A stretch of DNA of 64,000 bases from positions 1 through 64,000 of the forward strand of contig JADBWK010000024.1 of the NCBI GenBank assembly GCA_020404895.1. The letters are read 5' to 3'. Positions 16,783 through 37,164 of this stretch are shown here, in pieces. The notes beneath the pieces are model-generated. The model saw only the letters and a program-made list of their open reading frames with translations. It made no database searches and was not told the origin of the DNA. How positions within the stretch are numbered: position 1 is the stretch's first letter; each line of letters opens with the position of its first letter. Source of the stretch: Pseudanabaena sp. M085S1SP2A07QC (GTDB taxonomy: Bacteria; Cyanobacteriota; Cyanobacteriia; Pseudanabaenales; Pseudanabaenaceae). Both the position numbers and the translations under genes were made by a program.

Positions 16783-17850
16783 ATGAAACTACACTCGTTA
16801 GAAATTGAAAATTTTCGAGCTATAAAACATCTTGAATTAGATTTTACTGACAAATTGTCAAGACCAAGATTAATGACTTTAATTGTTGGTCCTAACGGCT
16901 CAGGTAAAACTTCTATCTTTGACGCTATTGATATTGTTGTTAAGACGGCTGAAGATGGGCAAAATCCACAATTAAGAGATGGGTTAATTTTGTCACCTCA
17001 GCAAATTATCAAAGGAATTGGATGTCATTCTAATATTAGATTTGAATATTCATTGAATGAAGATGAAGAAAAAGCAATTATAAAGGTTTATTCTAAAATG
17101 GGTTTTCCAATATCTGAACAATTGGAAAAAGGCAAAAAATTTGCAGTTAAAGATATCTCTAAAATTAGGTGGTCATTTCCCTCAAAAAACTTTAATCAGT
17201 ATCCTTGTGATATTGAGAACGAATCACCAGATTTAATTTATTGTCTAGGAGCAAGAGGAATAGCTCAAAAAGCGATTGCCATAAATTTAGAATCTTCAAA
17301 TATTTTTGATGTAATTGGAGGAATTTGCTACTTAGATCAACGCAGAATAGTAAGCTTAGACAAAAGTATATCTAACAGCAAAGAAGAGAATTTAGCTCTT
17401 GATGATGTACTTTCGCGACTTTATTTTTACTATAAAAAACATATAATATGGAACGAAGAAAAATATGGCGAGTCATATTGGACAAGGATACAACGCCTTT
17501 TTAATAAGATTTGCTATCCTGCTGAATTCATCGGTTTAGAGTCAGGACCAGATTCAGATACTCTTATTTTGCGAAAAAATGGCGTTGACTATGATCTATA
17601 TCAGATGAGTTCTGGTGAGCATCAAATTTTACGGATCTTAGTTGGTCTAGCATCGGCAACAGCGAAGAACTCAATTGTTTTAATTGATGAAATCGAACTT
17701 AATCTGCATCCGACTTGGCAGAAAAGATTAATTAGAACATTGAGAGATGATACAGATAATAATCAATATATTTTTACAACTCACTCCCCTGACGTGATGG
17801 GTCTTTTTTATGATTCAGAAATTATTTATCTTGGGGATTTATTGGAGTAA
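16783..17850 (+). CDS. AAA/ABC-type ATPase of a two-gene defence-like module (PARIS AriA-like)
   Basis: 355 residues of the OLD/RecF-like ABC ATPase class. It has 'SLEIENFRAIKHLELDF' at the start, Walker A GPNGSGKT (residues 36-43), signature SSGEHQ (276-281), Walker B VLIDEIE (299-305) and H-loop TTHSP (332-336). A family-specific insert fills the middle. The next gene begins 6 bp after its stop and encodes a TOPRIM/DUF4435-like protein. An ATPase plus DUF4435 pair is the layout of PARIS, where AriA senses phage anti-restriction proteins and releases the AriB effector. AriA is typically longer than this. The gene is A+T-rich and has no HIP1 site, unlike its neighbours, suggesting transfer. 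Confidence 0.75.
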   Translation: MKLHSLEIENFRAIKHLELDFTDKLSRPRLMTLIVGPNGSGKTSIFDAIDIVVKTAEDGQNPQLRDGLILSPQQIIKGIGCHSNIRFEYSLNEDEEKAIIKVYSKMGFPISEQLEKGKKFAVKDISKIRWSFPSKNFNQYPCDIENESPDLIYCLGARGIAQKAIAINLESSNIFDVIGGICYLDQRRIVSLDKSISNSKEENLALDDVLSRLYFYYKKHIIWNEEKYGESYWTRIQRLFNKICYPAEFIGLESGPDSDTLILRKNGVDYDLYQMSSGEHQILRILVGLASATAKNSIVLIDEIELNLHPTWQKRLIRTLRDDTDNNQYIFTTHSPDVMGLFYDSEIIYLGDLLE

Positions 17851-17856
17851 TTAGTA

Positions 17857-18807
17857 ATGATTATTAGAGAAAATGCTTTATATATTTTAATTGAAGGAAA
17901 GCCTTATAGTCCTGAAGTTTCATTCTTTAAGCAATTGTCATTTCCTGATGATATAGTCCCTCTAGAATTTGTTGAAGTTGGAGGGAGTGGTAGTTTTAAT
18001 ATAGTTTCAGAATTGATATACAACAAAATTCAAGACAGGAAAAAATCTATTCATCACAAAATACCAGTATTAGCAATTACAGATAATGATTTTCGTAAAT
18101 ATCCTAAAACTGATGATAAGTCCGATAGTACATTTAATGATCTTATTCAAGAAAAGAAGCCTCAAAAAATATATTTAGAAAGACACGAATGGGAAAATTT
18201 TTTGCTTGATGAGTTAGATATTATTACTGATATTTTAAATAGTTCTCAAATCAATAAAATAAGGCAGGATATGGTTCAGAAAGATTATATTGAAAAGTTT
18301 TTACTGCAATACTTTCAAAATGAAATTCAAATTCAAACAGAATTCATACAATGTATAAGATTTAGATTTGGAGATCTACGCAAAAAATATCCTCGCTTAG
18401 AAGATCCGAAATATAAAGAGATCCAAGATATTAAGCATTTAAAACAATGGTATGAATCTGAATTAACAAAACAAGCACAATTTTCTAAAGATGAGATTGA
18501 GTCTGAGAAATACCTTGATATTTTTGATGATGTATTAGATGAGTACAATTGGAAGAATTGGCTTGAAGATCCAAAATCTCTATTGTTTGAAGATGGGAAA
18601 AAATATTTTCAGGGGAAAGAAGCTTTCAAAGCTCTTTTAGATCATTTAGTACAAAAATTTAAAATTTCCCCTTCCTTCCTTAATGAAAGGGAATTCAAAC
18701 CACTGATCATTGAAGAGATCCAAAAGAATAGAGATAAATCGGTTTTAGTTGATCAGATCGACACATTACTAAGACCTTATTTAAAAATGATTAGGGAAGG
18801 GCTGTAG
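17857..18807 (+). CDS. TOPRIM/DUF4435-like effector protein (PARIS AriB-like)
   Basis: 316 residues. The N-terminal third has a TOPRIM-like pattern: 'LYILIEGK' with Glu13, a glycine-rich 'VGGSGSFN' (41-48), 'AITDNDFR' with Asp76 and Asp78, and 'LERHEWENFLLD' (107-118). This E...DxD...E-N order is that of DUF4435 and OLD-type nucleases. The rest is charged and helical. In PARIS the partner of the ATPase is a DUF4435 nuclease that cleaves tRNA. It is translationally close to the ATPase (6 bp) and to the ATP-grasp gene (6 bp). No HIP1 site, A+T-rich. Its own nuclease activity is not proven by sequence. Confidence 0.65.
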   Translation: MIIRENALYILIEGKPYSPEVSFFKQLSFPDDIVPLEFVEVGGSGSFNIVSELIYNKIQDRKKSIHHKIPVLAITDNDFRKYPKTDDKSDSTFNDLIQEKKPQKIYLERHEWENFLLDELDIITDILNSSQINKIRQDMVQKDYIEKFLLQYFQNEIQIQTEFIQCIRFRFGDLRKKYPRLEDPKYKEIQDIKHLKQWYESELTKQAQFSKDEIESEKYLDIFDDVLDEYNWKNWLEDPKSLLFEDGKKYFQGKEAFKALLDHLVQKFKISPSFLNEREFKPLIIEEIQKNRDKSVLVDQIDTLLRPYLKMIREGL

Positions 18808-18813
18808 TAAGTT

Positions 18814-19650
18814 ATGTTGACAAACATCAAAATGTTATTGGAGGCTTGCAAAAAGTTATCCGTAGAATACGAGATTTTGCATCCGAATCAGAATCTAGTT
18901 AAGGTTAGACTCAGCGATCGCGAATATTACTTTACCAACTATTCAACCCCTCTCACGCCGCAATCTATAGCGGAAATCTTTAAGGATAAGCAATATTTTT
19001 ATCAAGTATTTCAAGATGTCGTGAAGATGCCCCGCACGTTGTCTTTTATCTCACCCTATTGTGATCAGAAATACAAAGAGTATTTACAATTCTCGACTAT
19101 CGAGGAAATTATTGCAGAGATTGAAAGCAACTTTGAGTTGCCAATCATTGTAAAGCGGAATCGGGGATCGGGGGGGAATAATGTCTTTAAGTGCTTTGAT
19201 TTGATACAGATTCGGAGTGCTTTAGATTGTATTTTTAATGTTAATAGCAAAAACTATGACTATGTTGCTCTAGTACAAGAGCCAATTAATATCGTTAAAG
19301 AATATCGCTCCGTATGTCTCAATCATGAGCAAATAGTTCTGTATGACAAAGATATTTCGCAGGCTGAGTTTACAGGAAATCTCAGTCCTTTGCATTGGGA
19401 AGGGGCGATCGCGAAACAAGTTAGTAATCACGAAACGATTACTGCAATCGATGAGTTTATCAAACCAATTTTCCAGAAGATGCCTGCGATCGCTTATGTA
19501 GGGCTAGATGTTGCAATAGATGATCGCGGCGTGTACTGGCTGATTGAGGCGAATTCGCATCCAAATTTTGATATTTTTATTCGAGATAATGGAGAAGAGC
19601 CGATCATAGGGCTTTTCCAAAAGATTTTAAGATATTTGGAATGCGCATAA
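18814..19650 (+). CDS. ATP-grasp enzyme of unknown substrate (RimK/cyanophycin-synthetase-like)
   Basis: 278 residues. ATP-grasp marks: 'LPIIVKRNRGSGGNNVFKCF' (nucleotide-binding lysine and flexible glycine loop), 'ALVQEPI' adenine-contacting strand, and 'VGLDVAIDDRGVYWLIEANSHPNFD' with the Mg-binding Glu and Asn. Such enzymes join a carboxylate to an amine or thiol via acyl phosphate. It starts 6 bp after the TOPRIM gene but, unlike that pair, contains HIP1 sites (for example near 18915). So it may be native and only adjacent. Substrate unknown. Confidence 0.75.
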   Translation: MLTNIKMLLEACKKLSVEYEILHPNQNLVKVRLSDREYYFTNYSTPLTPQSIAEIFKDKQYFYQVFQDVVKMPRTLSFISPYCDQKYKEYLQFSTIEEIIAEIESNFELPIIVKRNRGSGGNNVFKCFDLIQIRSALDCIFNVNSKNYDYVALVQEPINIVKEYRSVCLNHEQIVLYDKDISQAEFTGNLSPLHWEGAIAKQVSNHETITAIDEFIKPIFQKMPAIAYVGLDVAIDDRGVYWLIEANSHPNFDIFIRDNGEEPIIGLFQKILRYLECA

Positions 19651-29197: not shown

Positions 29198-32268
<3,071 letters not shown>

Positions 32269-32967
32269 ATGATGAATACTCCAACCTTACCAAGAGAGCA
32301 ATCTGCGACATCAGTAAGTGAAAAAACAGAGAAATCCAGACCCTTATCTGAAAATCGGGTCTTGCTTCATGGGGTGAGTTGGGAAACTTTTGAGTGCTTA
32401 CTTGCAGATGTTGGCGATCGCCGTAAAACTCTATTCAATTATATTAAAGGTAATTTAGAGATTATGTCTCCGCTCTCACTCCATGAAGGAAGCAGTCGGT
32501 TTTTCGATAAGCTATTGACTATTTTCGTTGATGAACTGGATATCGATATGCGATGTTTAGGCTCGCTATTAATGAAAAGCTCAGAATTAAAAATTGGTGG
32601 GGAGCCAGATTCCTGTTATTACATCAAAAATGAGTTGGCTATTCGCGCTCAAGAAAATGTCATCGTTGGACAAGATCCTCCTCCCGATCTGGTTTTAGAA
32701 GTAGATATCACCAATCCTAGCGATCGCCGTTTACCGATCTATGCTCTCCTTGGTGTGCCTGAAGTCTGGCGTTACGATGGTTATAGTTTAGAGTTTTTAG
32801 CTTTGCAGAATGGGGGATATGTGGCGATAGAAAATAGTTTATCGTTTCCGACTTTACCCGCCGCAATTATTGTGGAATATGTGCAGAAGCGCTTACTCTT
32901 AGGGGAAAGTAAGACTTTAAAAGAGTTTCGGGGATGGGTGAAGGCGATCGCACGAGGACTAACATGA
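32269..32967 (+). CDS. Uma2 family endonuclease-like protein
   Basis: 232 residues. Uma2/DUF820 family with the PD-(D/E)XK-like core 'GGEPDSCYYI' and 'PDLVLEVDITNPSDRRLPIY', then 'GVPEVWRYDG'. The family is abundant and mobile in cyanobacteria, with function unclear. Its stop codon is immediately followed, in the same frame, by the truncated Septu-like ATPase, so its arrival may mark the break in that gene. Confidence 0.85.
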   Translation: MMNTPTLPREQSATSVSEKTEKSRPLSENRVLLHGVSWETFECLLADVGDRRKTLFNYIKGNLEIMSPLSLHEGSSRFFDKLLTIFVDELDIDMRCLGSLLMKSSELKIGGEPDSCYYIKNELAIRAQENVIVGQDPPPDLVLEVDITNPSDRRLPIYALLGVPEVWRYDGYSLEFLALQNGGYVAIENSLSFPTLPAAIIVEYVQKRLLLGESKTLKEFRGWVKAIARGLT

Positions 32968-33849
32968 AAATCCGATATTCTGCCACTAATTTCTTATTAT
33001 GGTACAGGTCGCCTTTGGTCACAAAAGAAGGAGAAGAGTATTGAAACATTACCACCGAGAGCAAGACGCTATGGATATGTGGATTGCTTAGATCCTGCCT
33101 CCAATCAAAAACAACTTCTCAAATGGATGAAAACAATGGAAATTGCATCTTTACAGAGAGGAAGTGAAATTAATGTACTTTCAGCACTCAAACAGTCTGT
33201 AAGTGAGTGTATGGAAAACTGGTGTTCAGTATTTTATGACATTCATGAAGATGATTTAATGGCAACTTCTGATAATGGGAAAATATTGCCTTTTCGGATG
33301 TTGAGTGACGGTGTTCGGAATATGCTGGCAATGGTCGCTGATATCGCATATCGTGCTGCAACACTTAATCCTCATCTTAAAGCTGATGTTATAGAGCAAA
33401 CTACTGGGATTGTTCTCATTGATGAAATTGAATTACATCTTCATCCAAAATGGCAAGTAAGAGTGGTCGAAGATCTTAGAAGAACGTTTCCAAAAATCCA
33501 GTTTATTGTTACAACACATTCTCCATTTATCATTCAATCTCTACATAATGGCAAGCTAATTAATCTCAATAGTTCTCCACCATCAGAATATGAAGGTAGA
33601 AGTATTGAGGACATCATCGAAGATATTATGGGGATTGAGTTACCACAATATAGTCGCAGAAAACTAGCGATGCTAAATGCTGCTGAGGAATACTACAGAG
33701 TGTTACAAGAAGCGGAAAGCCTTGGGCAAGATAAACAGGAAGAACTTGATGTATTAAAACAAAGACTCGACGAGCTATCTATGCCTTTTAGTGACAATCC
33801 TGCCTATCATGCCTTTCTAAAAATGGAACGCTTGGCAAGAGGTCTGTAG
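32968..33849 (+). pseudogene. Septu PtuA-like ATPase, N-terminus missing
   Basis: The reading frame is open from the Uma2 stop codon to 33849. It begins 'LPLISYYGTGRLW', a motif found inside, not at the start of, PtuA-type AAA ATPases. It keeps the signature-like LSDGVRNML, Walker B VLIDEIELHLHP (DE near 33421) and the H-loop TTHSPF, with a C-terminal helical tail. The first part, including Walker A, is absent. A GTG at 33079 could start a 256-residue product, but it would lack ATP binding. Three bp later comes the start of a PtuB-like gene. Confidence 0.75.
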
Positions 33850-33851
33850 AT

Positions 33852-33917
33852 ATGCGTCCAATCTTAAGAGGTGAAAGACCACTTGACTCAGAAGGCAATC
33901 CTAAAAATTTTACGTAG
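33852..33917 (+). pseudogene. Septu PtuB-like HNH gene, first 21 codons only
   Basis: An ATG two bp after the ptuA-like stop opens MRPILRGERPLDSEGNPKNF, then one more codon and a stop. This is the usual beginning of HNH proteins paired with PtuA-type ATPases, which start with a short R-G-x-x-P-x-D motif. The HNH domain is gone; the sequence switches to an IS66 tail shortly after. Confidence 0.6.
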
Positions 33918-33930
33918 AAGTTCAAGGGGG

Positions 33931-34056
33931 CTAAGGGAGAAGAGAAGGTGGAATTTGCCCAGAACGAGCAGCCAAGATAGATTCAGCCAAAAAATCAAGA
34001 ATATTACGCTCTTGGAGATTCAGAGAAGAAACAACAGTGAGTAAACGAGAGACAAA
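33931..34056 (-). mobile_element. IS66-family transposase C-terminal remnant
   Basis: Read on the minus strand this gives 'FVSRLLTVVSSLNLQERN', then 'LDFLAESILAARSGQIPPSL', ending near a stop at 33931. This is the conserved C-terminus of IS66 transposases (LTVV..L..Q.RN.L.FL......G...PSLLP). Only about 40 residues remain. It separates the ptuB-like stub from the truncated hsdR, and it explains the 112-codon minus frame at 33931-34269, whose other half is antisense to hsdR. Confidence 0.7.
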
Positions 34057-36186
34057 CTCGCCCATGTCGCCCCCAGCAAACGCGCCGAACTCATCGAAAA
34101 GCGTAAAGCCTACGCCAATAACAAAAATATTTATTCGCTCCTGCTGCAATACGCCGCAGGATTTGGCAAGTCTAACATCATCGGCTGGACAGCACTGCAA
34201 CTCAAAGACCTGCGCCGCAATGGTGAATATGTCTATGACAAAATCATGATCGTCGTCGATCGCCTCCAACTCCGCAGCCAGATCGACTCAAAGATGCTAA
34301 ACATGAACATCGATAATCGGATGTATGTTGAAGCGAATAATAAGGCAAGTTTCCAAAAAGCCCTTGAATCCGATACCCGCCTCGTGATCGTCAATCTCCA
34401 AAAATTTGGCGCAGTTGCAGAAATGCTTGCTCCTGATACCATGCAAAAACTTTCGCAATTGCGTATTGTCTTCCTAATCGATGAGATCCACCGTTCCAAT
34501 AGTGGCGAACAACATGAAGAAATGGTCAATATCTTCGATGAACTGCAAACACCCTTTGACACTCAAACCAGCCTATTCCGTACCAAAAAGAATTTAATTA
34601 TCGGCTTCACCGCCACACCTGACGACCATACCCTCGCACGTTTTGGTGAATTTAGCGGCTATGCCGAAAGCGAAAAGCTCTGGGTTCCCTTCGATTCCTA
34701 CACCATGAATGAAGCAATTAAAGACAAATTTGTTCTCAATCCGCTCAAAAATATTATTCCCGTGGCTTCCAAGCTAGGGTTTAACCTTCCAAGCAATAAA
34801 CAGGAAGGCTTCGAGCAACCTAATTACAAAGATGTCGATAAAAAGCAAATCTATGAAGAACGCGAACGAATCAAAGAGATCGCCAAATACATCGCCGATC
34901 TCCTCGTAAAAGATGTCTATCCTAAAATTCGCGGCACGGCAAAAGCCATGCTCGCCGTGTACTCAATTAAAGCAGCGATCGCCTATAAACAAGCCATCAC
35001 TAAAAATTTCCAAGAAATCGTCAAACAAAATAAATACGCTAAATATGCCAAAGCACCCATTCACATCGTCTATTCCAGCAACCAAGACGAACAAAGCGCC
35101 ACAGGACTAAATGATGGACTTACCGAAGAAAAAGTCTTAGAAAACTTTGCCCTCGAGAAAAATGGCTTGATTATCGTTGTCGCCAAACTGCAAACAGGCT
35201 TCGATGAAAAAAGACTACACACCCTATTTCTAGACAAAGAGATCAAAGGCATTAGCGCCATTCAAGCAATTTCTAGAGTTAATCGCACCGCTAAACATAA
35301 AAATGAATGCAAAATCGTTGATTTTTCCTACAACAACGTCAACGTTCAAAATATCAAAGAAGCCTTTGAGCATTTCTCCGATGTTGTCGTTAGTGACTTC
35401 GATCCCTTCAGTGACAAACGCATATTAGAACTGCTATTCACAATACTGAAAAAATCTGATGTCTACGAAGAGTTCTTCAATATATTTGTGGCGATCGCTA
35501 ATGATGTCACTAAACAAAATAATCCCGAAAACCACCTAGATTTAGAAAGTAGCATCGAAAAATATATCGAAGCTAATCCTAAACCCACCGCCGACACCAA
35601 AGCCAAAACCGCCCAATATTTCACCATACTCAATCGCATCGAGTATGTGATTACCCTAGAGGCAAAATACAGCGAATCGAATCTTTTAAATTTCCTCCGC
35701 CTATTCAATAAAATATACAACCAACTACATCGCACCGATGAAGTTAAAGATGCGATCAAAGTCTATTTTGACAATCAAATCGGCATTATTGAAGTCCAAA
35801 CCCATCCCAAAGAACCCAAGATCCCCAAGTCGCCCAAAATAGCTGAGGGTAAACCGCCCTTTACAGTTCATCAATTTGATATTCTGACGATTCTCGAAGC
35901 TCGTAACGATCAAGAAAAATTAAAAGGCGATCGCATCCAAGAATTTGCAACCAAAATAGTAGAATTCTTCTCTTACGTCCAAAATTGTGAGGAAGGTAGA
36001 CGCTTAGTTGTCAAAATCAATTCCTATGTCCCAGAAGAAGAGATTTATGAAGAATTTGCAAAAATCTACACCAAGTACAAAATTTTAAATAGAAAGACTG
36101 TCGGAGATTACTTTTTCAAGGAAACCGAGGATCTTGTTAATAAACTTTGTGATGATTTTGAAGTGATAGTGCGGAATACTCATTGA
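34045..36186 (+). pseudogene. Type I restriction HsdR-like motor, N-terminal nuclease domain missing
   Basis: The frame is open from a stop at 34042 to 36186. It keeps the whole helicase/translocase: Walker A AAGFGKSN (34153-34176), 'VFLIDEIHRSN' (DEIH near 34480), GFTATPDD, 'KLQTGFDEKRLHTLFLDK' and 'AISRVNRTAKHK', plus a C-terminal helical region. The usual 200-300 residues with the PD-(D/E)XK nuclease are absent upstream, replaced by the IS66 tail. The first ATG (34246) lies after Walker A. No hsdM or hsdS is in the window. It is probably non-functional. Confidence 0.75.
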
Positions 36187-36924: not shown

Positions 36925-36942
36925 TCATTAATTCTTATTTTG

Positions 36943-37039
36943 AAAACTGGTTTTCTGAAAGCCTTCCGCAAACAAGCTTTCAGAAAACCAGTTTTGTGTT
37001 CTTCAGCGCCTGCGGCGCTGAAGAACACAAAACTGGTTT
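36943..37039. repeat. Two hairpins sharing a middle arm
   Basis: Hairpin 1 pairs 36943-36962 with 36976-36995 (20 bp, TTTTGAAAGC-family tip, here TTCTGAAAGC). Hairpin 2 pairs 36985-37010 with 37014-37039 (26 bp perfect, loop TGC). The segment 36985-36995 belongs to both, so only one full stem can form at a time. The same design occurs at 40549-40647. It lies between petF and murJ. Confidence 0.88.
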
Positions 37040-37164
37040 CATACAGCGATTGCTAGATTTTGATGCAAGCTTTAACGTGAGTGGTATTTTGATGATACAT
37101 TTCTCAAAGTCTAAACTGCAAAGAGGCATCACCAATTTTGTCTAGCAACGAAGAAGAAATCGAC

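Follow-up and report, generated by a model that had tools for sequence, protein, structure and literature searches.

Septu is an anti-phage system of two parts, the ATPase PtuA and the HNH protein PtuB. According to excerpts of the report on the E. coli Septu EcB88, this system cleaves tRNA-Tyr during infection and impairs the growth of infected cells, and its immunity is abolished by mutation of Walker A, of Walker B or of the HNH motif, each on its own (PMC13096335). The Septu of these excerpts acts like abortive infection, and it depends on the ATPase motifs in PtuA as well as on the HNH motif in PtuB (PMC13096335). The PtuAB pair of retron-Eco7 also depletes tRNA-Tyr, with PtuA and PtuB arresting growth only together, and another Septu has been reported to act on nicked DNA (both from excerpts of PMC11555353). 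Searches of the literature for Septu in cyanobacteria or in pseudogenes, and for recombination, hypervariability or a sensor domain in PtuA, gave nothing on the present locus among the matches listed.

Here we describe a locus in a 64,000-nucleotide stretch of DNA (hereafter the window) from a cyanobacterial genome (G000), a 4.8 Mb draft in 190 contigs that is rated 99.7% complete. In our assessment it is very probably a decayed Septu operon, in which an intact pair once stood directly downstream of a Uma2-family gene and was broken by two events. The original prediction, made from the letters of the window, had seen here the wreck of a Septu-like system next to Uma2; profile matches, PtuB-like frames downstream of related ptuA genes and an intact pair in a relative (G014) all support it. 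We identified the parts and their families, read the junctions as assembled, and found the intact homologous locus. The features are listed in the table.

Features of the Septu locus and its right flank in the window
Feature	Positions	Strand	Basis
Uma2-family gene, 232 aa	32269..32967	+	Pfam PF05685 Uma2, E 2.6e-16
Surviving ptuA start, ATG and codons 2-4 (MKIR)	32964..32975	+	Alignment with intact ptuA of G014 and G008; translation
ptuA remnant, about the last 285-290 codons	32968..33849	+	Matches to PADLOC PDLC00278 and PDB 8ee4
ptuB remnant, codons 1-20 and two bases of codon 21	33852..33913	+	Likeness to PtuB starts
IS66-type insertion sequence end, about 148 bp, cut off inside, begins GTAGAAGTTC	33914..34061	+	Match to the copy in contig 12
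Microhomology AACTCGC, 7 bp, common to IS and hsdR at their junction	34055..34061	+	Read by eye
5'-truncated type I restriction gene hsdR	34055..36186	+	NCBIfam hsdR and the protein of a relative

The Uma2 gene is divergent from a gene at 29198-31948 on the minus strand, which we take to be apcE (phycobilisome core-membrane linker), and its stop codon overlaps the start codon of ptuA (ATGA). The block of apcE and Uma2 shows 82-95% identity in relatives whose downstream genes differ. We regard Uma2 as a mere neighbour and not as a component of Septu; it was found with or without Septu in relatives.

Downstream of Uma2, the frame at 32968-33846 is open over 293 codons, without internal stop upon translation, and ends with TAG at 33847-33849. 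In PADLOC it matched the PtuA model PDLC00278 best (E 5.7e-106, profile positions 137-433 of 436); among solved structures, a PDB sequence search ranked the PtuA 8ee4 first (E 1.6e-37), presumably a Septu PtuA. Both results place the frame in the PtuA family. In Pfam it matched AAA_21 and AAA_15, aligned over the C-terminal parts of both models only. The frame contains YYGTGRLW from 32995, as well as what we take to be the Walker B region (IVLIDEIELHLHPKW) and the H-loop (TTHSP), and none of its 293 codons form a Walker A motif or P-loop, so that a complete PtuA ATPase with Walker A is absent from the locus. By these matches, the open frame is the C-terminal two thirds of a PtuA ATPase. Translation and motif reading confirmed the ATPase frame, open from the Uma2 stop and with Walker B and H-loop but no Walker A, that had been predicted, and the profile search with PtuA models that had been proposed as a check assigned it to PtuA.

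The prediction itself had named an ATPase family that naturally starts at YYGTGRLW as the finding that would speak against it. We surveyed relatives of the fragment and obtained 43 matching frames, 40 of them distinct (three loci were fetched twice). The standard P-loop GxxxxGK[ST] was present in 36 of the 40, and the variant NNGQGKT in L040 and L041, giving 38 of 40 in total; one of the two frames without a P-loop is cut by the end of its locus, and the other is a 69-aa piece. Wherever a YYGT-type motif could be recognised (13 distinct frames), it lay at least 147 residues past the stop codon that bounds the frame on its 5' side, and a natural start at this motif was seen in none of these 13 relatives. 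Of the 12 distinct loci closest in sequence to the ptuA fragment, 11 have a PtuB-like frame whose end lies no more than 1.5 kb downstream; L034 is the exception, and the match in L032 is weak (36.5 bits). As a separate observation, Planktothricoides sp. SR001 (L033, 3065-6930) carries a tandem ptuA array, with three long PtuA-like frames and a short piece followed by a PtuB-like frame.

The closest PtuA homologues among the 26 genomes of the genus searched (own genome included) were those of G014 (62%) and G008 (59%). In G014 (L084, contig C4), apcE, Uma2, ptuA and ptuB are intact at the syntenic site, and its DNA is 91.5% identical to the window between the 3' end of apcE and the start of ptuA. 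The G014 pair was recognised by PADLOC (PtuA E 2.9e-146, PtuB E 9.8e-80), residues 38-81 of its PtuB match HNH (24.6 bits against a cut-off of 21.4), and both the ATGA overlap and the 2-bp spacing between ptuA and ptuB are the same as in the window. The intact pair that the prediction had proposed to look for at this locus in close strains was found in this genome of the same genus, beside apcE and Uma2. In G008 (L094), the ptuA-ptuB pair stands behind a different upstream gene. There, 34 bases around the ptuA start (window 32941-32974; L094 4363-4396) are 97% identical and include GCGATCGC, which we take to be the cyanobacterial HIP1 repeat; it is as if the Septu module had brought its own leader. 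The family search covered 38 genomes (own genome included), and 5 of them have a PtuB of the same type at E 1e-10 or better. No other genome was found to carry the junctions seen in the window.

Comparison with the intact genes revealed how the 5' part of ptuA was lost. The surviving start reads ATG AAA ATC CGA, with the ATG at 32964-32966. In G014 and in G008 this ATG stands 474 nt before the YYG codons; here it stands only 31 nt before them. About 443 nt are missing relative to both: codons 5 to about 151 are gone, with a shift of frame, and with them the P-loop that G014 and G008 have. Because this loss is not a multiple of three, translation from the native start runs for 26 codons and then stops, and the bases before about 32976 in the 32968-33849 frame are the old ptuA start in another reading frame. 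The prediction had the ATPase beginning inside the protein with its 5' part lost at the Uma2 junction. The frame open from the Uma2 stop is, however, the downstream part of ptuA in its own register; the native start survives, and the loss is an internal, frame-shifting deletion and not one at the Uma2 junction.

The ATG at 33852 lies 2 bp past the ptuA TAG and opens 21 codons, MRPILRGERPLDSEGNPKNFT, followed by TAG at 33915-33917; the last base of codon 21 and this TAG belong to the IS end. The short peptide shares 13 of 21 residues with the PtuB of G014 and 12 of 21 with that of Symplocastrum (L025). Among the 2733 starts in the window with 21 open codons it had the top BLOSUM62 score, 71, the runner-up having 23. 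For the comparison of PtuB starts we used seven N-termini; nine loci were considered, and L026 and L030, in which no Met-Arg start was located, were left out. With the first residue fixed, none of 20000 shuffles reached the score against G014, and none of 20000 that against L025. The weaker matches were reached, out of 20000 shuffles, by 1 (L027), 9 (L033), 14 (G008), 506 (L028) and 658 (L031). The profile libraries gave no match to the remnant, which is too short for one to be expected. A PtuB with an HNH domain is missing beside ptuA: only about the first 21 codons are left, and the HNH domain, residues 38-81 in G014 PtuB, would lie past the end of the remnant. A search of the own genome with G014 PtuB did not recover the rest of the gene and gave two weak matches (21.6 and 19.3 bits). 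What had been predicted as the first 21 codons of an HNH-type partner, 2 bp after the ATPase stop, indeed corresponds to the start of PtuB.

As had also been predicted, the 3' part of this partner was lost at an IS66-type end, which cuts ptuB from 33914. This end is 99.3% identical over 149 bp, with one base different, to a longer copy in contig 12 of the own genome. That copy encodes an IS66 DDE transposase domain (E 5.2e-24) and carries an inverted counterpart of its end at a distance of about 1.43 kb, with 2 mismatches in 17 bases; no 8-bp direct repeat was visible around the copy. On the other side of the junction, the truncated hsdR is 89% identical to residues 359-1069 of a 1071-aa relative, and residues 1-358 are missing, including the HSDR_N domain (residues 1-173 of the relative); its NCBIfam hsdR score is 124 bits against a cut-off of 284.55. 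No match to residues 1-358 was reported elsewhere in the own genome, and an exact-pattern scan of viral contigs across the junction of IS and hsdR gave no match. We also considered a simple inversion between the IS copies; the failure to find the rest of ptuB or the start of hsdR elsewhere in the genome speaks against it.

Further to the right, the last part of hsdR is matched directly upstream of a ferredoxin-like gene in G014 (from window position 36050) and in G005 (from 36134), and hsdR may have decayed there independently (window 36050-36186; L112, L114). Between the ferredoxin-like gene and a murJ-like gene (both named by eye) lies a repeat at 36930-37051, with a palindromic part at 36985-37039. 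Several genomes of the genus have matches to it elsewhere, and it looks like a small mobile repeat.

Taken together, these features suggest the following history, in which we infer the order of the breakage events. The ancestor would have had an intact ptuA-ptuB pair beside apcE and Uma2, with the ptuA start overlapping the Uma2 stop. An out-of-frame internal deletion of about 443 bp would have removed ptuA codons 5 to about 151 together with Walker A, and an IS66-type element would have inserted at codon 21 of ptuB. After the insertion, a rearrangement, probably a deletion or an illegitimate join through the 7 shared bases, would have taken away what was left of ptuB, the greater part of the IS and the first third of hsdR. 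We infer that the remnant has no Septu function, because the P-loop half with Walker A and the HNH nuclease are both gone, and anti-phage activity is predicted to be absent. Some observations run counter to a simple decay. The 293 surviving codons contain no further stop or frameshift, and therefore the decay would be recent, or part of the frame would still be kept. In addition, protein identity between the ptuA remnant and G014 PtuA is only 61%, against 91.5% DNA identity in the flank, and therefore the ancestral allele was not that of G014.

A different account would place the breaks in the assembly: one or both junctions could be faulty, and the real Septu could be intact or otherwise broken, with a misjoin at the repeated IS66 end. 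Such a fault would fit a draft of 190 contigs in which the IS end is repeated in contig 12, and it would also fit the distance between the apcE and ferredoxin regions, which lie on different contigs or at least 37 kb apart in the relatives with listed matches to both, so that their nearness in the window is unusual. We nevertheless consider it unlikely, given that the IS copy in the window differs from that in contig 12 by one base in 149, that no IS or repeat was seen at the edges of the ptuA deletion, that a genome rated 99.7% complete yielded neither the lost part of ptuB nor that of hsdR at another place, and that the DNA after Uma2 varies among the relatives examined, so that change at this site is common.

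Still less probable, in our view, is that the pair was the effector of a type I-A retron, which combines PtuAB with a reverse transcriptase and msDNA, and not a stand-alone Septu. The NCBIfam model of retron Ec78 PtuA does match the ptuA remnant (E 2.7e-44), as does PADLOC ATPase_I-A (172 bits), which we take from its name to be the retron type, and retron PtuA chains occur among the PDB matches. However, the NCBIfam score (NF041760) is 152 bits against a cut-off of 500, a shortfall that is weak alone for so short a fragment, PADLOC PtuA1 reaches 353 bits, the best PDB match is 8ee4, and no reverse transcriptase was noticed by eye among frames of at least 120 aa at the intact G014 locus. It would be just as surprising if the remnant were still in use, with a shortened PtuA acting as a regulator or in a dominant-negative way. 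A frame of 256 codons (33079-33849) is open from a GTG at 33079 with its Walker B and H-loop residues intact, but it has no P-loop, which is present in 38 of 40 distinct related frames (the exceptions being the cut frame and the 69-aa piece), the native ptuA start stands in another frame and PtuB has lost its body. Moreover, one Septu was inactive when mutated in Walker A, Walker B or HNH, according to the excerpts mentioned above (PMC13096335).

We return to the reading of a decayed Septu operon and to the site at which it stands. We surveyed the flanks of seven relatives with Uma2 beside apcE and two further apcE flanks, that is, 9 of 25 relatives; names of domains and PADLOC systems come from profile scans, and the AAA pair was scanned in G014 only and recognised elsewhere by eye from the first residues. 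Downstream of Uma2, G014 has its Septu and an AAA pair, G016 a different Septu in opposite orientation, G012 a PIN_8 gene and the AAA pair, and G023 the AAA pair, where the contig ends. In G020 the Uma2 match is cut at window position 32509 and is followed by a 227-aa gene (sub-threshold HEPN match) and the AAA pair. G004 has a 208-aa gene without assignment, and G010 no frame of at least 120 aa within about 0.9 kb. Beside apcE, no Uma2 match was found in G019, and only a 75-bp match in G005. The DNA after Uma2 (window 32945; sites in L084, L086-L090 and L111) differs among the seven relatives, several of which hold defence-type genes, and the last codons of Uma2 itself vary with what follows. 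By these comparisons, the place beside apcE and Uma2 is variable and looks like a turnover site, and a wreck there is no surprise. Elsewhere in the window (16783-19650), a 355-aa AAA_15 ATPase, a 316-aa protein and an ATP-grasp protein stand in a row. The PADLOC scores of this ATPase for PtuA and AriA are about equal, and the 316-aa protein has no match in Pfam or PADLOC; the ATPase and its partner are possibly an undescribed pair.

Comparison of 18 ptuA genes of the genus, considering pairs with at least one 100-nt window at 85% identity or more, revealed alleles of mosaic appearance. Between G014 (L084) and G008 (L094), 60-nt windows of ptuA are 82-98% identical up to nt 1020 and 49-65% identical in the final ~300 nt, and in ptuB most windows are at 43-57%, with one gapped window at 12% and two near the end at 72 and 77%. 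The alignment looks as if the PtuA tail and PtuB had been exchanged together. Six alleles with common conserved ends were then chosen, labelled L010-L015 (ptuA of G012, G013, G002, G016, G021 and G006); that of G007, nearly identical to G006, was left out, and G016, the one of the six that was profile-scanned, matched PADLOC PDLC00271 best. Mean pairwise protein identity among the six is 78% in columns 1-30, 59% in 31-60, 16-35% in 61-150, 40-56% in 151-210, 73-78% in 211-270 and 89-100% in 271-450. The hypervariable stretch (columns 61-210) lies between the P-loop half and the Walker B half, which suggests diversifying exchange of a possible sensor part; alternatively, strong constraint at the ends may be combined with a fast-evolving middle. 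A wider picture may be drawn, though it is less likely than not: the genus would swap whole defence modules beside apcE and Uma2 and Septu itself in pieces, PtuA alleles either exchanging the stretch between a conserved P-loop half and Walker B half (the six genomes) or exchanging the PtuA tail along with PtuB (the one pair of genomes). The hypervariable middle of PtuA would sense the phage trigger, and the wreck would be a snapshot of this traffic.

As a further dead copy of a known system, the wreck by itself changes little. Its use is that the breakage can be read stepwise, as a deletion, an IS end and a 7-base join, against an intact pair at the same site, and that it pointed to the variable site beside apcE and to PtuA alleles of mosaic appearance. 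These alleles could show which part of PtuA recognises phage.

With respect to described systems, the locus is like Septu (PADLOC PtuA1/PtuB1) in the PtuA family of its ATPase, by profile and PDB match, in the order of ptuA and ptuB, 2 bp apart, and in having intact homologues of ptuA and ptuB at the corresponding locus of G014. It is unlike Septu in that its ptuA has lost Walker A and the reading frame through an internal deletion and that only ~21 codons of ptuB are left. With the PtuAB of type I-A retrons (Ec78/Eco7, Ec83/Eco4) it shares a homologous ATPase core, whereas the fragment stays far under the NCBIfam equivalog cut-off. The Septu of G016 (PDLC00271), at the same site, also has a PtuA and a PtuB-type partner beside Uma2; in contrast to the pair described here, it is of another PtuA/PtuB subtype and in opposite orientation, and was probably acquired separately.
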